DNA from: Dehalococcoidales bacterium
GTDB taxonomy: Bacteria; Chloroflexota; Dehalococcoidia; Lucifugimonadales; Lucifugimonadaceae
NCBI GenBank assembly: GCA_009937255.1
Contig: JAACCT010000061.1
Location: forward strand, 1-41,505
DNA: 41,505 bases
Direction: 5' to 3'
Positions 17,286 through 28,135 of the stretch are shown in pieces. The translations under genes and the position numbers were made by a program. Position 1 is the stretch's first letter; the number at the start of each line of letters is the position of its first letter. The notes beneath the pieces are model-generated. The model was not told the origin of the DNA. It ran no database searches and saw nothing but the letters and a program-made list of their open reading frames with translations.

Positions 17286-18461
17286 ATGATAAATATAAAA
17301 AGTATTGTTTCTCAAAATTTTAAGAATAAAAATTGTTTACTAAGACTTGATCTTAATATTCCACTTTCGGAAAAAGGTGAAATTTTAGATGATACTAGAA
17401 TAATAGAAAGTATACCTAGTATAGATTTTTTATTAGATCAATCAGCTAAAGTTATAATAATTTCTCACATAGGTAGACCATTAGGAAAATTTAATGAAAA
17501 ATTTTCTTTTATTAAATTAATAAAAATAATTGAAGAAAAAATTAAAAGAAGAATTATTTTTATTAGATATGAAGATCAGAAAAATATAAAAAAAATTATA
17601 AATAATTATCCCTATGGAACTTTGTTTATGTTAGATAACTTAAGATTTAATCCTGGAGAAGAACAAAGTAATAAAGATTTTATAAATTTTTTATCTAGTT
17701 TTTCTGATATTTATATTAATGATGGATTTGGTACTATTCATAGAAATCACGCTTCTATAACAGGCATATCAAAACAAATTCCTTCATATGGAGGAATTTT
17801 AGTTGAAAAAGAAATAACTAATATTATTGAATGTTTAAATTATAATTCTGATAAATCTATTGCTATTTTAGGTGGATCAAAAATTAAAGATAAAATTCCA
17901 ATTATTGAAAATTTATCAAAGTCTTTTAAAGACATTATTATTACAGGAGGAATGATTAGACCCTTTTTAATAGCTTCTAAAAAAATTATTCAAAAAGATG
18001 AATCTATTTATAAAGAAGAAATAGAATTTGCTAAAATTCTTTTGAAACTAAATAATAAAATATATATTCCTGAGCATTTAATTTGTAGTAAATCAATAAA
18101 ATCTGAAGCTGTTTTTCTTCATTCTACTCAAATTACAGATGAAGATAATATTTACGATATAGCTCCTAATTCTATGAATGAAATAACAAAAAAAGTACTA
18201 AATTCAGACAAGATAATTTGGAATGGACCTCCTGGTATTTATGAATATGAAAAATTTCAAAATGGAACAAAAATCTTAATTCAATCAATAATAAATTCAG
18301 ATTCAAAAATAAAATTAGCAGGAGGAGGATCTACAGTTGCAGCTATAAATTATTTTAAAGCCTCTGATTTTTTTACTCATATATCAACTGGTGGTGGAGC
18401 ATTTCTAAGCTTACTTGAGGGTAAATATATGGAAGGTATTGAAGTATTAAAAAATGAATAA
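17286..18461 (+). CDS. pgk: phosphoglycerate kinase
   Basis: This glycolytic/gluconeogenic kinase interconverts 1,3-bisphosphoglycerate and 3-phosphoglycerate. Motifs in order are LLRLDLNIPL (signature), DDTRIIES, ISHIGRPLG, NDGFGTIHRNHAS, AILGGSKIKDKI, WNGPPGIYEYE and the nucleotide-binding AGGGSTVAAI with STGGGAFLSLLEG near the end. The length of 391 aa is normal. It overlaps tpiA by 8 bases. Confidence 0.95.
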   Translation: MINIKSIVSQNFKNKNCLLRLDLNIPLSEKGEILDDTRIIESIPSIDFLLDQSAKVIIISHIGRPLGKFNEKFSFIKLIKIIEEKIKRRIIFIRYEDQKNIKKIINNYPYGTLFMLDNLRFNPGEEQSNKDFINFLSSFSDIYINDGFGTIHRNHASITGISKQIPSYGGILVEKEITNIIECLNYNSDKSIAILGGSKIKDKIPIIENLSKSFKDIIITGGMIRPFLIASKKIIQKDESIYKEEIEFAKILLKLNNKIYIPEHLICSKSIKSEAVFLHSTQITDEDNIYDIAPNSMNEITKKVLNSDKIIWNGPPGIYEYEKFQNGTKILIQSIINSDSKIKLAGGGSTVAAINYFKASDFFTHISTGGGAFLSLLEGKYMEGIEVLKNE

Positions 18462-19185
18462 ATTTTATATAATTGCAAATTTAAAAATGAATAAATCCTT
18501 TGAGGAAAGTAAAAAATACTTGAAATCTCTTCAAAATAAAGTTAAGAGCTCAAAATGCAAAATTGTTTTATGTCCATCAAATATTTCACTCGCGCACTTT
18601 AATAAAAATATTCATGAAATGGAACTAGGTATTCAAGATATAGATTATAGAAATGAAGGACAGGGGACAGGTTCAATATCTGCCTCTCAAATAAAAGATA
18701 TTTGTGATTATGTATTAATTGGGCATTCTGAAAGAAGAGAAACATTTTCAGAAGACCATAAATTATTAAATAAAAAACTTAAATCTTCTTGGAAAAATAA
18801 CTTAAAAACTATCTTTTGTGTCGGAGAAAATATAAATATTAGAAATAAAGGAAGCAAAGCTGTAGAAGATTATATTGTTAAACAACTAGTTAATTCTCTA
18901 TAACCAGATAGCGATTGGAAAAACCTAATAGTAGCTTATGAGCCTATTTGGGCTATTGGTACTGGTAAACCTGCAGATACATTACAAATTAAAGATGTTT
19001 TAGAGGTAATTAAACTAACTTTATCCCAATTATCTAATAATATAAATATTCCAATTCTGTATGGGGGAAGTCTTAATGAAAAAAACTTTCAAGAATATAA
19101 AAATAAAAAAAATATAGATGGATTATTAATTGGTAGTGCTAGTTTAGATCCAGATATTCTTTCTAATATAATAAATAATATTTAA
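18454..19185 (+). pseudogene. tpiA: triose-phosphate isomerase, interrupted by one in-frame TAA
   Basis: This glycolytic TIM-barrel enzyme interconverts DHAP and GAP. Read through the TAA at 18901-18903 (codon 150), the frame yields 243 residues, close to the usual 250. Upstream lie Asn9-Lys11 (NLKMNK) and the catalytic His91 (IGHSERRE). Downstream in the same frame are the catalytic Glu163 (VAYEPIWAIGTGK), ILYGGSLN for phosphate binding and LLIGSASL. No bases are lost or gained, so one substitution accounts for the break. A product ending at 18903 would lack the catalytic base and the phosphate loop. The start overlaps pgk by 8 bases; the distal stop abuts the miaA ATG (TAAATG). Confidence 0.92.
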
Positions 19186-20112
19186 ATGAAAAATAATAGA
19201 TTAATATCTATCGTAGGTACAACAGCATCAGGTAAATCAAATTTAGCTTTAAAATTGGCTATAAAATATAAATTGCCAATATTAAATAGTGATTCTAAGC
19301 TTTTATATAAAGGATTTAATATTGGCACAGCAAAACCATCTTTAGAAGAACTGAAAAAAGTAAAACACTTTATGGTTGATGTTTTAGATTATAAAGATAA
19401 AAGTAATCTTAAGTGGTTTCTTGATAAATCAAGAAAAATAATTAATAATCTAAATGATGCAAATTCTATCCCTATATTAGTAGGAGGAACAGGGCAGTAT
19501 ATTTGGGGAATAATTGAAGGATGGGATCCTCCTGAAATAAGACCTAATATAAAATTAAGAGAATCAATTCAAAATGAAATTTTAGACTTAGGAATAAATT
19601 TAGTAGTTAAGAAATATTCTGAAAAATTTGATCTTGATGGGATTTCTGATTTAAATAATCCTAGAAGATTTATAAGAGCAATAGAAAGGTTAGAATCAGG
19701 TTTTTCAGGTGATACTAAAAATAAGATTAAAGATCATAATCTCGATTCATTAATTTTAGGAATAAATATAAATAGAAAAAAAAATGATGAATTAATAAAA
19801 CATCGTATAAATAAAATGTTAAATTCAGGTTGGATCGAAGAAGTAAAATCTCACCTAATAAATGGAATCAAAGTTGATTCACCTCCGATGATGTCAATTG
19901 GATACAGAGAAGTTAATGAATTTTTAAATAATAGAATAAATGTATCGGAACTAGAAGAAAAAATATTTTTTTCTACAAGAAAACTGATGAGACATCAAGA
20001 TAATTGGTTTAAGAAATCTGATAAAAGAATTAAATGGATTGATTTAGAAAACTCTTATAGTCAAGCAGATAATATAATATCAGAATGGCTATCTAAAAGA
20101 GAGGATAAATAA
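19186..20112 (+). CDS. miaA: tRNA dimethylallyltransferase
   Basis: The enzyme transfers a dimethylallyl group to A37 of UNN-decoding tRNAs. The P-loop GTTASGKSNLAL is at residues 11-22, followed by LNSDSKLLYKGFNIGTAKP (the DSxQ-type region, with Lys replacing the usual Gln), VGGTGQYIWGIIEGW, NPRRFIRAIER and a C-terminal FFSTRKLMRHQDNWF. At 308 aa it is full length. It starts directly at the distal tpiA stop and overlaps dapF by one base (TAATG). Confidence 0.93.
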   Translation: MKNNRLISIVGTTASGKSNLALKLAIKYKLPILNSDSKLLYKGFNIGTAKPSLEELKKVKHFMVDVLDYKDKSNLKWFLDKSRKIINNLNDANSIPILVGGTGQYIWGIIEGWDPPEIRPNIKLRESIQNEILDLGINLVVKKYSEKFDLDGISDLNNPRRFIRAIERLESGFSGDTKNKIKDHNLDSLILGININRKKNDELIKHRINKMLNSGWIEEVKSHLINGIKVDSPPMMSIGYREVNEFLNNRINVSELEEKIFFSTRKLMRHQDNWFKKSDKRIKWIDLENSYSQADNIISEWLSKREDK

Positions 20113-20960
20113 TGTTACCCTTCGTAAAACTACAAGGTGCAGGAAATGACTATATTGCAATTGATGGTAGGAATAAAGATTATGACTGGAATCAACTTTC
20201 TATAGATATGAGCAAACCAGCTTTTGGAGTAGGATCAGATGGTATAGTTGTAGTATTTGAAAGTGATAAGTCTGATATTCGTATGAGAATATATAACCCT
20301 GATGGTTCCGAAGCTGAAATTAGTGGAAATGGGATAAGATTATTTACTAAATTTATAATTGATGAAGAAATATTTATTCCAAAAAAAGATTCAATACAAA
20401 TAGAAACTGGCGATGGAATAAAAACTGTTTACCCTAAAATTGTTAAAAATAAAGTGATTTCTTCTAGAGTAGAAATGGGAATTCCAAATTTTATACCTAG
20501 TAAAATACCTATTAATGTTCCTAATATGAATGATTCTGATAATCCAAAATTTTCTTTAAAAGTCTTAGATTTTAATTTAGAAATAACTTGTCTTTCTGTA
20601 GGAAATCCTCATGCAGTTTGTATTATGGATGAAAATGTTGACAATTTTCCATTGGTTGAAGTAGGAACTCTTGTTGAAAAACATGAATATTTCCCTAATA
20701 GAATAAATTTTGAAATAGTAAATATAATTTCAAGAGAAAAAATTAGAGCTAGAATTTTTGAAAGAGGAGCAGGAGAAACATTATCATCAGGAACTGGTTC
20801 TACAGCTTCTGCTAGTGCTTCAAGATATAATGGATTGGTTGACGATGAGGTTGAGGTCATTCTTGATGGAGGTAGTTTGAATATTTCTTGGGATAAAAAA
20901 GGCATGGCTATGCTTGAAGGTCCTTCAGTTGAAGTTTTTAAAGGTGTTTGGTCAAATTAA
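20112..20960 (+). CDS. dapF: diaminopimelate epimerase homologue lacking both catalytic cysteines
   Basis: The 282-aa protein has the DapF fold pattern: KLQGAGNDYIAIDG at the start, FGVGSDGIVV, YNPDGSEAEISGNGIRLF, VGNPHAVCIMD, and ERGAGETLSSGTGS. In active DapF the two active-site bases are the Cys of CGNGxRC and the Cys of ACGTG. Here they are Ser71 and Ser226, and the second Cys of the first motif is Leu77. By length and all other motifs it is intact and in frame, so this is substitution rather than decay. It lies between miaA and dapL, whose product LL-DAP is the expected substrate. It may be impaired, use serine, or have another role. Confidence 0.85.
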   Translation: MLPFVKLQGAGNDYIAIDGRNKDYDWNQLSIDMSKPAFGVGSDGIVVVFESDKSDIRMRIYNPDGSEAEISGNGIRLFTKFIIDEEIFIPKKDSIQIETGDGIKTVYPKIVKNKVISSRVEMGIPNFIPSKIPINVPNMNDSDNPKFSLKVLDFNLEITCLSVGNPHAVCIMDENVDNFPLVEVGTLVEKHEYFPNRINFEIVNIISREKIRARIFERGAGETLSSGTGSTASASASRYNGLVDDEVEVILDGGSLNISWDKKGMAMLEGPSVEVFKGVWSN

Positions 20961-20980: not shown

Positions 20981-22144
20981 ATGGAATTAGCAAAAAGAGT
21001 TAAAGAATTACCACCATATCTATTTGTAGGTATATCTAAAGCAATAGCAAAAAAGAAAGAACAAGGTATTGATGTTATATCTTTTGGAATAGGAGACCCT
21101 GATATACCTACTCCAAATAAAGTGTTAGATAGATTAAAAAAAGCATCAGATAATCCTGCTCATCATAAATATCCTGAATCTGAAGGATTACCTGAGTTTA
21201 GACAAGCTGTTTCAAATTTTTATAAAAATAGATTTAATGTAGATTTAGATTTTGGAACTGAAATAATCAATCTTATTGGAGCTAAAGAAGGTATTGCTCA
21301 CGCTCCTCTTTGCTTCATTGACCCTGGAGATAAAGCTATAGTGCCTAACCCCGCATATCCTGTGTATGAAATAGGAACAATGTTTGCTGGTGGAGAAACA
21401 GTTTTTATTGACTTATTAGAAAAAAATGACTTTTTAGTTGACTTTACTTCTATAGATACAAAACTTGCTAAAGAAGCCAAAATGATGTGGATTAATTATC
21501 CAAATAATCCAACTGGAGCGATAGCTAATCTTGATTTTTTCAAAGAAGCAGTAGAATTTTGTAAGGAATTTGATATAGCTTTGATGCATGATGCTTGCTA
21601 TACAGAAGTGACATTTGATGGCTACATTGCCCCTAGTATATTACAGGTACCTGGAGCGATGGATATCTGTATTGAATTTCATTCATTATCTAAAACAGCT
21701 AATATGACTGGCTGGAGAGTTGGGAGTGCAGCAGGTAATCCAGATTTAATTAATGCTCTTATGAGAGTTAAGTCTAATATTGATTCCGGACTATCTCAGG
21801 CAATTCAAGAAATGGGTATAGAAGCTTTATCTTTGTCAAAAGATTGGATTAATCAAAATAATGATATTTATAAAAAAAGAAGAGATAAAGTTGTCTCAAC
21901 TCTTAATGAAATTGGACTTGATGCAAACGCTCCTAAAGCAACATTATATATTTGGACAAAAGTACCAGAAGGTTTTACATCAGCTTCTTTTACTGAAAAA
22001 TTATTAGAAGAAGCAAATGTTGTAGTTACTCCTGGTAATGGATATGGTAAAGCAGGAGAAGTATATGTAAGATTATCTCTAACTATCCCAGATGATCAAA
22101 TTGACGAAGGGTTAAAAAGGTTGTCTAAATTAAATTTAAAATAA
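20981..22144 (+). CDS. dapL: LL-diaminopimelate aminotransferase
   Basis: This PLP aminotransferase makes LL-diaminopimelate directly from tetrahydrodipicolinate, bypassing the acyl-DAP steps. Landmarks are ISFGIGDPDIPTP, KYPESEGLPEFRQA, GAKEGIAHAP, YPNNPTGAIA and the Schiff-base lysine in FHSLSKTANMTGWRVG. I chose ATG 20981, preceded by AGGAGA at 8 bases, giving 387 aa. An upstream GTG at 20948 overlapping dapF would add 11 poorly fitting residues. Pairing with dapF is typical of lysine/peptidoglycan loci. Related fold-type I transaminases cannot be fully excluded. Confidence 0.85.
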   Translation: MELAKRVKELPPYLFVGISKAIAKKKEQGIDVISFGIGDPDIPTPNKVLDRLKKASDNPAHHKYPESEGLPEFRQAVSNFYKNRFNVDLDFGTEIINLIGAKEGIAHAPLCFIDPGDKAIVPNPAYPVYEIGTMFAGGETVFIDLLEKNDFLVDFTSIDTKLAKEAKMMWINYPNNPTGAIANLDFFKEAVEFCKEFDIALMHDACYTEVTFDGYIAPSILQVPGAMDICIEFHSLSKTANMTGWRVGSAAGNPDLINALMRVKSNIDSGLSQAIQEMGIEALSLSKDWINQNNDIYKKRRDKVVSTLNEIGLDANAPKATLYIWTKVPEGFTSASFTEKLLEEANVVVTPGNGYGKAGEVYVRLSLTIPDDQIDEGLKRLSKLNLK

Positions 22145-22145
22145 T

Positions 22146-23258
22146 TTGAAATTACATAAAACTAAAATAAAAAAAGAAAAAGCATTACTTGTTGCCTGTG
22201 CAATAAAAGGTAAGTCTTCAATTAAAAAGTTAAAAGAGTCTTTATCAGAACTTAATAATTTAAGTATTTCAGCTGGTGCAGATCCAATTTACGAAATTTA
22301 TCAACTATTACAAAAACCTCAAAATACATATATTGGTTTAGGAAAAATTTCTGAAATTAAAGAGTATATTAAAATTCATGAAATTGAAGTTTGTATTTTT
22401 GATGATGAGTTAAATCCAAGTACTCAAAAAGTTTTAGAAAACAAACTTGGAATTAAAGTTATTGATCGTACAGCTTTAATTCTAGATATATTTTCTAAAA
22501 GAGCTCAGACTCATGAGGGGAAATTACAGGTTGAATTAGCTCAATCTGAATATTTACTTCCTAGATTAGCTGGACAATGGTCTCATCTTGAGAGATTAGG
22601 AGGAGGAATAGGGACAAGAGGTCCTGGTGAAACTCAAATAGAAACAGATAGAAGGCTTATAAGAGGAAAAATAAAAAGAATTAAAGCTGGAATGAAAAAA
22701 GTAGAATCTACAAGAACTTCTCAAAGAACTAAAAGAATGAATAATAATATTATTAATTTATCCTTAGTCGGATATACAAATTCTGGAAAAAGTTTAATTT
22801 TTAATAAGCTCGTTAAATCTAATATTTTATCGAAAAATCAATTATTTTCTACTTTGGATACTACCACGAGAAAGATTTTCTTAGATGAAGAAATATATTC
22901 TACAATTTCAGATACAGTAGGTTTTATAAATAAACTTCCAACAATTTTAGTTGAGTCTTTTAAATCAACATTAGAAGAAGCTATAAATGCAGATATATTA
23001 TTACATGTTGTTGATTATTCAGCAGAAGATTTCAATGAAAAGATAGAAACAGTTGATAATATTTTATTTGAATTAGGACTTAATAAAGTTCCTAAAATAT
23101 TAATAAAAAATAAAATAGATCTTATTGAAAAACCTTTAGAATATTTAGAATTAGATGAAAGCTATTTAGCACAAATTACTACATCTGCAAAGGTTGGTAC
23201 AGGATTAAATGAACTTAGGAGTTCACTCCTAAATGCTTCTCAAATAGTTAAAAATTAA
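22146..23258 (+). CDS. hflX: ribosome-associated GTPase HflX
   Basis: HflX binds the large ribosomal subunit and splits stalled or hibernating ribosomes. The N-terminal HflX domain includes the diagnostic glycine-rich segment ERLGGGIGTRGPGETQIETD near residues 153-172. The GTPase domain has G1 GYTNSGKS, TLDTTTR (switch I), DTVGFI (G3) and IKNKIDLIE (G4). At 370 aa it lacks a long C-terminal extension. The start is TTG 1 base after the dapL stop. It is the last gene of this operon before a 55-base gap. Confidence 0.93.
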   Translation: MKLHKTKIKKEKALLVACAIKGKSSIKKLKESLSELNNLSISAGADPIYEIYQLLQKPQNTYIGLGKISEIKEYIKIHEIEVCIFDDELNPSTQKVLENKLGIKVIDRTALILDIFSKRAQTHEGKLQVELAQSEYLLPRLAGQWSHLERLGGGIGTRGPGETQIETDRRLIRGKIKRIKAGMKKVESTRTSQRTKRMNNNIINLSLVGYTNSGKSLIFNKLVKSNILSKNQLFSTLDTTTRKIFLDEEIYSTISDTVGFINKLPTILVESFKSTLEEAINADILLHVVDYSAEDFNEKIETVDNILFELGLNKVPKILIKNKIDLIEKPLEYLELDESYLAQITTSAKVGTGLNELRSSLLNASQIVKN

Positions 23259-27034: not shown

Positions 27035-28135
27035 ATGAAAATTACCAAAATAGATACAATAACTATAGGGTTGCCTTTTGAAAATCCAGGCCCTGAATCT
27101 TCATTTGTTATAGCCGATAAAAATATTTTGAATTCTCTTCTGATTAGAATAGAAACTGATAAGGGTATAGTTGGTTGGGGAGAATCTTTTGGTTACTTAT
27201 CAATTGAAACAACTAAAGCAGCATTAGATTCTATGATTATTCCTCAGTTAATTGGAAAAAATATTGAAAGTAGAAACGATATAGAATTAATTAATAAAGA
27301 ACTTCAATTAAAACTTCATCTATTTGGGCGTTATGGCATAACCATGTTTGCACTATCAGGAATAGATATTGCACTTTGGGATATATTAGGAAAAGCTGAA
27401 AATAAATCTATAGCAGAGCTGCTCGGAGGTTTAAAAATTGAATCTCTTACAGCATATGCAAGCTTATTTTTGTATGATGATTCAGAAGCTACATCAAAAG
27501 TATCTTTAAAAGCCAAAAATGAAGGCTATGAAATTATTAAGCTCCATGAAAATACCATGGCACCTATTCAAGCTAGCAGAACTGCAATTGGAGATACAGC
27601 ACTCATGGTTGATGTAAATTGTGTTTGGTCTGAAGAGCATATGGAAGAAATTAAAAACACATTAAAAGAAGCAAAATTATATTGGTTAGAGGAGCCAATA
27701 TGGCCACCAGAAAATTATTCCGGCCTTTCTAAATTGAGGGAACAAGGATTTACAATAGCTTCTGGAGAAAACGCATGCACTTCATATCAATTTGAACAAA
27801 TGATATCTAATAAAGCAGCTGATATTTTACAACCAAGTGTTACGAAAGTAGGAGGTATATCTGAAATGATTAAAATTTCTACTTTAAAAAAGAATAATTG
27901 CAGAGTGGTACCTCACTCACCATACTTTGGTCCAGGGTTTGTTGCTAGTCTTCAAGTAATTGGAGCATTAACGCCAGAAAGTGAAATAGAGAGATTATAT
28001 ATTGATTTAAAAGCAGACCTTTATGGCGGAGTAAGTAATATTGATCAAAATGGAAAAATTTTAATTCCTAATGGGCCAGGTCTTGGAATAGAACCTAATT
28101 TAGACATAATAGAAAAATATAGAAGGAATAGCTAG
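27035..28135 (+). CDS. enolase-superfamily enzyme (mandelate racemase/muconate lactonizing subgroup)
   Basis: This 366-aa protein has a capping N-terminal domain and a TIM-like barrel. Metal ligands are Asp193 (MVDVNCVW), Glu219 (WLEEPIWP) and Glu245 (SGENA). His294 (PHSPYFGPG) would be the general acid/base of MR-type enzymes. On the opposite side the usual KxK is KLH (Lys169, His171), so only one lysine is conserved. Likely chemistry is dehydration or epimerisation of a sugar acid or related carboxylate; the substrate is not predictable. Numerous paralogues of this family are known in marine SAR202 Chloroflexota. An AAGGA ribosome site lies 5 bases before the ATG. It is bracketed by related 72-nt sequences. 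Confidence 0.83.
   Translation: MKITKIDTITIGLPFENPGPESSFVIADKNILNSLLIRIETDKGIVGWGESFGYLSIETTKAALDSMIIPQLIGKNIESRNDIELINKELQLKLHLFGRYGITMFALSGIDIALWDILGKAENKSIAELLGGLKIESLTAYASLFLYDDSEATSKVSLKAKNEGYEIIKLHENTMAPIQASRTAIGDTALMVDVNCVWSEEHMEEIKNTLKEAKLYWLEEPIWPPENYSGLSKLREQGFTIASGENACTSYQFEQMISNKAADILQPSVTKVGGISEMIKISTLKKNNCRVVPHSPYFGPGFVASLQVIGALTPESEIERLYIDLKADLYGGVSNIDQNGKILIPNGPGLGIEPNLDIIEKYRRNS

Follow-up and report, generated by a model that had tools for sequence, protein, structure and literature searches.

Two cysteines are regarded as the defining machinery of diaminopimelate epimerase (DapF) and of the wider group of DapF-like racemases, and as the reason for the sensitivity of these enzymes to thiol reagents. 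The window analysed here, a stretch of 41,505 nucleotides from a Dehalococcoidales bacterium, encodes a DapF homologue with serine at both positions, which raises the question of how its cell carries out the epimerisation step. Either serine performs proton transfer at the alpha-carbon at a biological rate, or the lysine pathway of this lineage runs without a known epimerase.

The window corresponds to contig C6 of a genome of 1.47 Mb (108 contigs, 90% complete); the named genomes closest to it are MAGs with the labels SAR202, Dehalococcoidia or Chloroflexi. SAR202 genomes of such size and low GC have been described as streamlined euphotic types (PMC11994032). For comparison, we used the 37 genomes from 12 genera of the window's own SAR202 family (hereafter f1) as well as further families of the Chloroflexota.

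Identity and setting of the DapF homologue

The frame at 20112-20960 is uninterrupted and encodes a full-length DapF homologue, which matches the curated DapF equivalog model TIGR00652 over residues 4-280, well above the cut-off of 114.65 bits. The features relevant to the analysis are as follows.

19186-20112 (+): miaA, upstream neighbour of dapF (TIGR00174, 192.4 bits; conserved synteny)
20112-20960 (+): dapF homologue of the Ser/Ser type, 282 aa (TIGR00652, 226.7 bits; PF01678, 151 bits)
20322-20324 (+): codon AGT of Ser71, at the position of the first catalytic Cys (Anabaena Cys75)
20340-20342 (+): codon TTA of Leu77, at the position of the conserved non-catalytic Cys of CGNGxRC
20604-20612 (+): Asn165-Pro166-His167 of the GNPH loop, invariant in 34/34 f1 proteins
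20757-20765 (+): Phe216-Glu217-Arg218, a family-specific Phe for Trp followed by the kept Glu-Arg pair of the DAP site
20784-20789 (+): codons TCA TCA of Ser225 and Ser226, with Ser226 (20787-20789) at the second catalytic Cys position (Anabaena Cys224)
20981-22144 (+): dapL, LL-diaminopimelate aminotransferase (NF006756, 591.6 bits, above cut-off)
22146-23258 (+): hflX, downstream neighbour (TIGR03156, 425.1 bits; conserved synteny)

The two motifs read SGNGIRLF (Ser71) and TLSSGTG (Ser226), and cysteine stands opposite both serines in PDB alignments with solved DapFs. Translation and alignment thus bear out the preliminary description of this DNA, which had reported serine at both catalytic positions. 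The best PDB match is 9mro, the DapF of Anabaena, with the catalytic residues Cys75 and Cys224 (PMC12039745). An assignment to another racemase of the DapF fold was rejected, as neither candidate matches better than DapF: the O-ureidoserine racemase 7vdy (107 bits) ranked below 14 DapF chains, and NF038284 (bifunctional DapF/Glu racemase) scored 79.4 bits, under its cut-off of 350. An AlphaFold2 model of the protein, built from five sequences only, reached a mean pLDDT of 42, which is too poor for judging geometry.

By sequence, the protein belongs to the DapF family, lacks the two-cysteine pattern (CGNG, ACGTG), as do 34/34 f1 members, and is a Ser/Ser DapF variant and putative epimerase. Because the curated model scores it well above cut-off, automated annotation would miss the change. 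The Ser/Ser DapF is real and fixed in its family, and no description of a natural serine DapF was found in the literature searched.

The location of dapF beside dapL, also noted earlier, was confirmed. The dapL gene probably starts at ATG 20981, within an ORF that opens at TTG 20948. This adjacency is retained in nearly all f1 members, and the gene order miaA-dapF-dapL-hflX recurs in most of them. Elsewhere in the window, tpiA (triosephosphate isomerase, 18454-19185) is broken by a single in-frame TAA (18901-18903), its frame being complete apart from this; the gene is uninterrupted in five relatives (L031-L035), and the TAA reflects either a recent mutation or an error in the base sequence.

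Fixation of serine within the family and beyond

A dapF gene was found in 34 of the 37 f1 genomes, always as a single copy, and the three genomes without a match are 61-74% complete. All 34 proteins have serine at both catalytic sites, across a gene GC of 31-64% and pairwise protein identities with a minimum of 51%. Site 71 is encoded by AGT or AGC in 34/34 genes, one base from TGY, and site 226 by TCN (TCA, TCC, TCT or TCG; 34/34), likewise a single substitution away from Cys, and synonymous variants occur freely at both codons. The preliminary description had taken Cys/Cys relatives as a sign of error; the close relatives agree with the window instead, and sequencing error was rejected. An artefact of sequencing, assembly or genetic code has a negligible chance of explaining the serines: although the genome is fragmented and tpiA of the same window contains an isolated in-frame stop, 34 separate genomes are concordant, synonymous codons vary at both sites, and the catalytic cysteine is kept in LysA (CESGD) and in the window's GMP synthase (GICYG). 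Since these two enzymes keep theirs, serine does not replace cysteine generally, and a general avoidance of catalytic cysteine was rejected as well.

The f1 dapF genes are under strong purifying selection, with dN/dS of about 0.05-0.13 (close pairs; synonymous sites near saturation). Only positions 71, 77, 216, 225 and 226 are conserved in f1 and depart from the consensus of relatives, and all of them lie within the two catalytic motifs; besides the two serines, Cys77 to Leu, Trp216 to Phe and Ala225 to Ser are fixed. In contrast, the DAP-binding residues N12, N62, G72, N73, N165, N199, G227 and T228 are invariant in f1, as is the conserved Glu-Arg pair (E217, R218). The DAP contacts in Anabaena are Asn13, Asn66, Gly76, Asn77, Asn164, Asn197, Gly225 and Thr226, where the substrate-binding Asn164 is the counterpart of Asn165 in the window's protein (PMC12039745). 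The earlier statement that everything apart from the two cysteines was intact is therefore right for substrate binding but has to be corrected for the three further fixed changes. Both serines are invariant, with no drift to Ala, Gly or Thr. From these patterns, we infer a concerted active-site change under selection, with no decay.

Compared to the known DapFs (TIGR00652; Haemophilus influenzae, Anabaena 9mro, M. tuberculosis), the protein is alike in full-length homology, DAP-binding residues and partner genes of the DAP-aminotransferase route. It differs by Ser for both catalytic Cys, Leu six residues after the first, Phe for the Trp before Glu-Arg and Ser for the Ala before the second site.

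Sampling of DapF in a wider set covered the Chloroflexota. Among 21 sampled sister families of the same order, 20 have the Cys/Cys form, and the remaining one (G049) is Ser/Cys. In the wider class, family f57 is Cys/Ser in 13/13 sampled proteins, while Ser/Cys forms make up 6/6 in f42 and 4/4 in f82 and occur as single cases in f77 and f56. Every single-serine genome carries one dapF. These forms resemble the f1 protein in being natural and clade-fixed with the binding residues kept but, unlike it, retain one catalytic Cys and Cys77. MurE was found above cut-off in 12/12 tested genomes of f57, 6/6 of f42, 3/4 of f82 and the f77 genome; a single serine is therefore compatible with peptidoglycan synthesis. 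Peptidoglycan loss as the cause of serine was rejected as a rule, given the MurE of f57 and f42 and also the many MurE-less families that stay Cys/Cys.

The f57 proteins (L141, L144, L161-L170, L206) share the motif ASGTS, with a serine codon that is mostly TCN but AGC in L164. The Ser/Cys proteins are L136 and L171-L175 (f42), L132 and L176-L178 (f82), L187 (f77), L191 (f56) and L040/L085 (f14); their first-site codons are mostly TCN but AGC in L187 and L191, a difference pointing to several origins.

A second Ser/Ser clade was detected in other Chloroflexota classes, comprising 11/11 sampled proteins of f114, 2/3 of f127 and a single genome in each of the families f130 and f131 (L217, L218, L220, L224-L233, L235, L236; motifs SGNGLRI and ASGTS). 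The f130 and f131 copies adjoin dapL, and two f127 copies lie near lysA. As in f1, the change is natural and clade-fixed, the binding residues are kept and Cys77 is lost; the clade differs from f1 by Ile77 and Ser229, at a mean identity of 33%. Position 77 is Leu in 34/34 f1 proteins and Ile in all 15 proteins of the second clade; Cys stands there in 83/86 Cys/Cys proteins and in every Ser/Cys and Cys/Ser form, so that loss of Cys77 is common to both Ser/Ser clades and the Ile of one parallels the Leu of the other. Cys231 is mostly lost in every serine-bearing group.

In the tree, f1 forms one fully supported clade inside the Dehalococcoidia, and the other Ser/Ser sequences group elsewhere. 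This favours two origins of Ser/Ser (by 17 log-likelihood units), with a single origin unrejected by the AU test (p 0.095). Cys-to-Ser replacement in DapF is clade-fixed in several parts of the Chloroflexota, and because single-serine forms are fixed elsewhere and a second Ser/Ser clade exists, serine is repeatedly tolerated. This natural series of Cys/Cys, Ser/Cys, Cys/Ser and Ser/Ser proteins could be used to map the second-shell residues that make a hydroxyl workable.

Lysine synthesis and the putative Ser/Ser epimerase

The pathway context of the protein is that of a DapF: dapL is adjacent, LysA and DapB occur throughout f1 except for gaps in incomplete genomes, and LysA of the window's genome has unchanged motifs. 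None of the 60 relatives that were searched yielded a MurE match above cut-off. This is in line with SAR202 lacking peptidoglycan (PMC10444878, PMC11994032), a loss that is ancestral to marine Dehalococcoidia (PMC10284905). With LysA present and MurE absent, lysine should be the only product that still requires meso-DAP. The suggestion that the cell has no need for meso-DAP thus holds for peptidoglycan but not for lysine, and it does not explain the Ser/Ser change. In Tepidiforma, a peptidoglycan-making member of the Dehalococcoidia, wall hydrolysates reportedly contained neither DAP nor lysine despite DAP-type genes (PMC10284905). A second canonical DapF, which the preliminary description had considered as counter-evidence, was found neither in the window's genome nor in any f1 member, including three single-contig genomes (G009, G019, G035). 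In these wall-less marine SAR202, the Ser/Ser DapF is the only enzyme found for one step of lysine synthesis.

We favour the reading, with a probability of roughly 0.6, that the window's DapF would be the working LL-diaminopimelate epimerase of the cell and serve lysine alone, its activity, rate and use of serine being read from the comparisons. Of the possibilities named earlier (a serine-based or weak epimerase, or a re-purposed protein), the first is thereby the best supported. DapL would produce LL-DAP, the Ser/Ser DapF would invert one of its centres to give meso-DAP, and LysA would decarboxylate the latter to lysine. Ser71 and Ser226 would stand on opposite sides of the alpha-carbon of the substrate, in a pocket whose DAP-binding residues and flanking motifs are kept, and two-sided proton transfer by their hydroxyls, or by hydroxyl-relayed water, would replace the thiol/thiolate pair with the assistance of helix dipoles. 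Thiols are much stronger acids than hydroxyls, and a Ser/Ser epimerase would probably be much slower than the Cys form. In DapF, the two sulphurs are located at helix N-termini and flank the alpha-carbon of the substrate from both sides (PMC12039745). The catalytic sulphurs of the Anabaena enzyme have no basic residue within 4 A (PMC12039745), which counts against a working Ser/Ser epimerase. The completeness of the window's genome (90%) also tells against this reading.

Laboratory mutants of DapF-fold racemases in which the corresponding Cys were exchanged for Ser (PddB C101S/C233S, HisR C67S/C209S) are nearly inactive. PddB Cys-to-Ser mutants have under 0.1% activity, with a like loss in M. 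tuberculosis DapF according to the same authors (PMC8225329), and activity is greatly reduced in HisR C67S and C209S (PMC11602996). These changes are single and engineered, whereas that of f1 is double, natural and family-wide and comes with neighbouring changes. The natural, cofactor-independent Cys/Thr racemases (EcL-DER, MMP0739 and the human trans-3-hydroxyproline enzyme) likewise have a hydroxyl residue at one acid/base position but, unlike the f1 protein, retain one Cys. For natural Thr-for-Cys members, one-way turnover or racemisation or dehydration has been reported or predicted (PMC8142540); their existence tempers the argument from the laboratory mutants. An assignment of the window's protein to this dehydratase or one-way racemase type was rejected, given serine at both sites with no Cys kept and no Thr.

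Slow turnover would be affordable for slow-growing, wall-less oligotrophs. SAR202 isolates grow at 0.18-0.24 per day (PMC10444878), and therefore a low DapF turnover may suffice. With a computed Lys fraction of 9%, and assuming that a cell contains 1e6 proteins, each 300 aa long, we arrive at an order-of-magnitude demand of about 100 Lys per second per cell; if 1,000 DapF copies are assumed, an estimated 0.1 per second or so would be needed from each. As M. tuberculosis DapF is listed with a comparable value, 0.15 per second (PMC8142540), a weak epimerase would be enough in principle. A more far-reaching and tentative proposal, for which we see less than even odds, is a natural cofactor-independent amino-acid epimerase whose acid/base pair consists of two Ser hydroxyls and which is fast enough for the needs of the cell; it would have arisen two or more times in the Chloroflexota, enabled by second-shell changes (Cys77 to Leu/Ile, others) that let serine succeed where the laboratory mutants do not.

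Alternative readings of the Ser/Ser protein

ALTERNATIVES. The rival readings are a re-purposed protein together with a different epimerase, an altered LysA, or other bases in the pocket. In the first of these, DapF would bind DAP or a similar amino acid and carry out an elimination, a one-sided exchange, sensing or the regulation of DapL, while an unrelated enzyme, perhaps of the enolase superfamily, would make meso-DAP. This appears unlikely, although several observations fit it. The loss of both catalytic groups comes with a concerted remodelling of the surrounding motifs, and in a related family of enzymes the exchange of one Cys for Thr made a dehydratase out of an epimerase (PMC8142540). 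SAR202 group I has an expanded set of enolase-superfamily genes, with 80 in one cultured strain (PMC10444878); one member is located inside the window (27035-28135). However, no other known epimerisation enzyme was found among the named racemase families searched. Neither Ddh (meso-DAP dehydrogenase) nor Alr (alanine racemase) was found in f1, and Asp/Glu racemase exceeded its cut-off in only 1/25 f1 genomes, with a match in two pieces; all three were rejected as the replacement. Re-purposing also sits poorly with the retained DAP-binding residues and dapL neighbourhood, with single-serine forms in MurE-positive genomes that have one dapF, and with the persistence of dapF in streamlined f1 genomes of 1.3 Mb.

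An active epimerase whose true bases would be supplied by His167, Glu217, a bound water or Cys160, with Ser71 and Ser226 acting as relays or spectators, seems very unlikely. His167 and Glu217 are indeed invariant in all sequence sets compared. Cys160 (20589-20591), five residues before Asn165, is invariant in 34/34 f1 proteins and present in 36/85 Cys/Cys relatives; it is possibly a relocated thiol, or its conservation is due to chance. Yet Cys160 is missing from the second Ser/Ser clade, spectator positions do not readily account for two serines that are never Ala, Gly or Thr, and the Anabaena enzyme offers no basic residue near its catalytic sulphurs.

It is highly improbable that LysA of f1 decarboxylates LL-DAP directly, or accepts either isomer, which would make the epimerase step dispensable and DapF a relic or a moonlighting protein. 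A nearly fixed change of Ala79 to Ser (18/19 f1 proteins), close to the PLP lysine, is what such a reading could build on. In the alignment of 19 f1 LysA proteins with 12 others, this contrasts with only three f1-specific differences overall, none of them in the motifs HxHxGS, GGG, EPGR, CESGD and YN, and dapF itself is not decaying, as its dN/dS indicates. A second, divergent LysA paralogue is encoded in one f1 member (L099; G011 contig C80).
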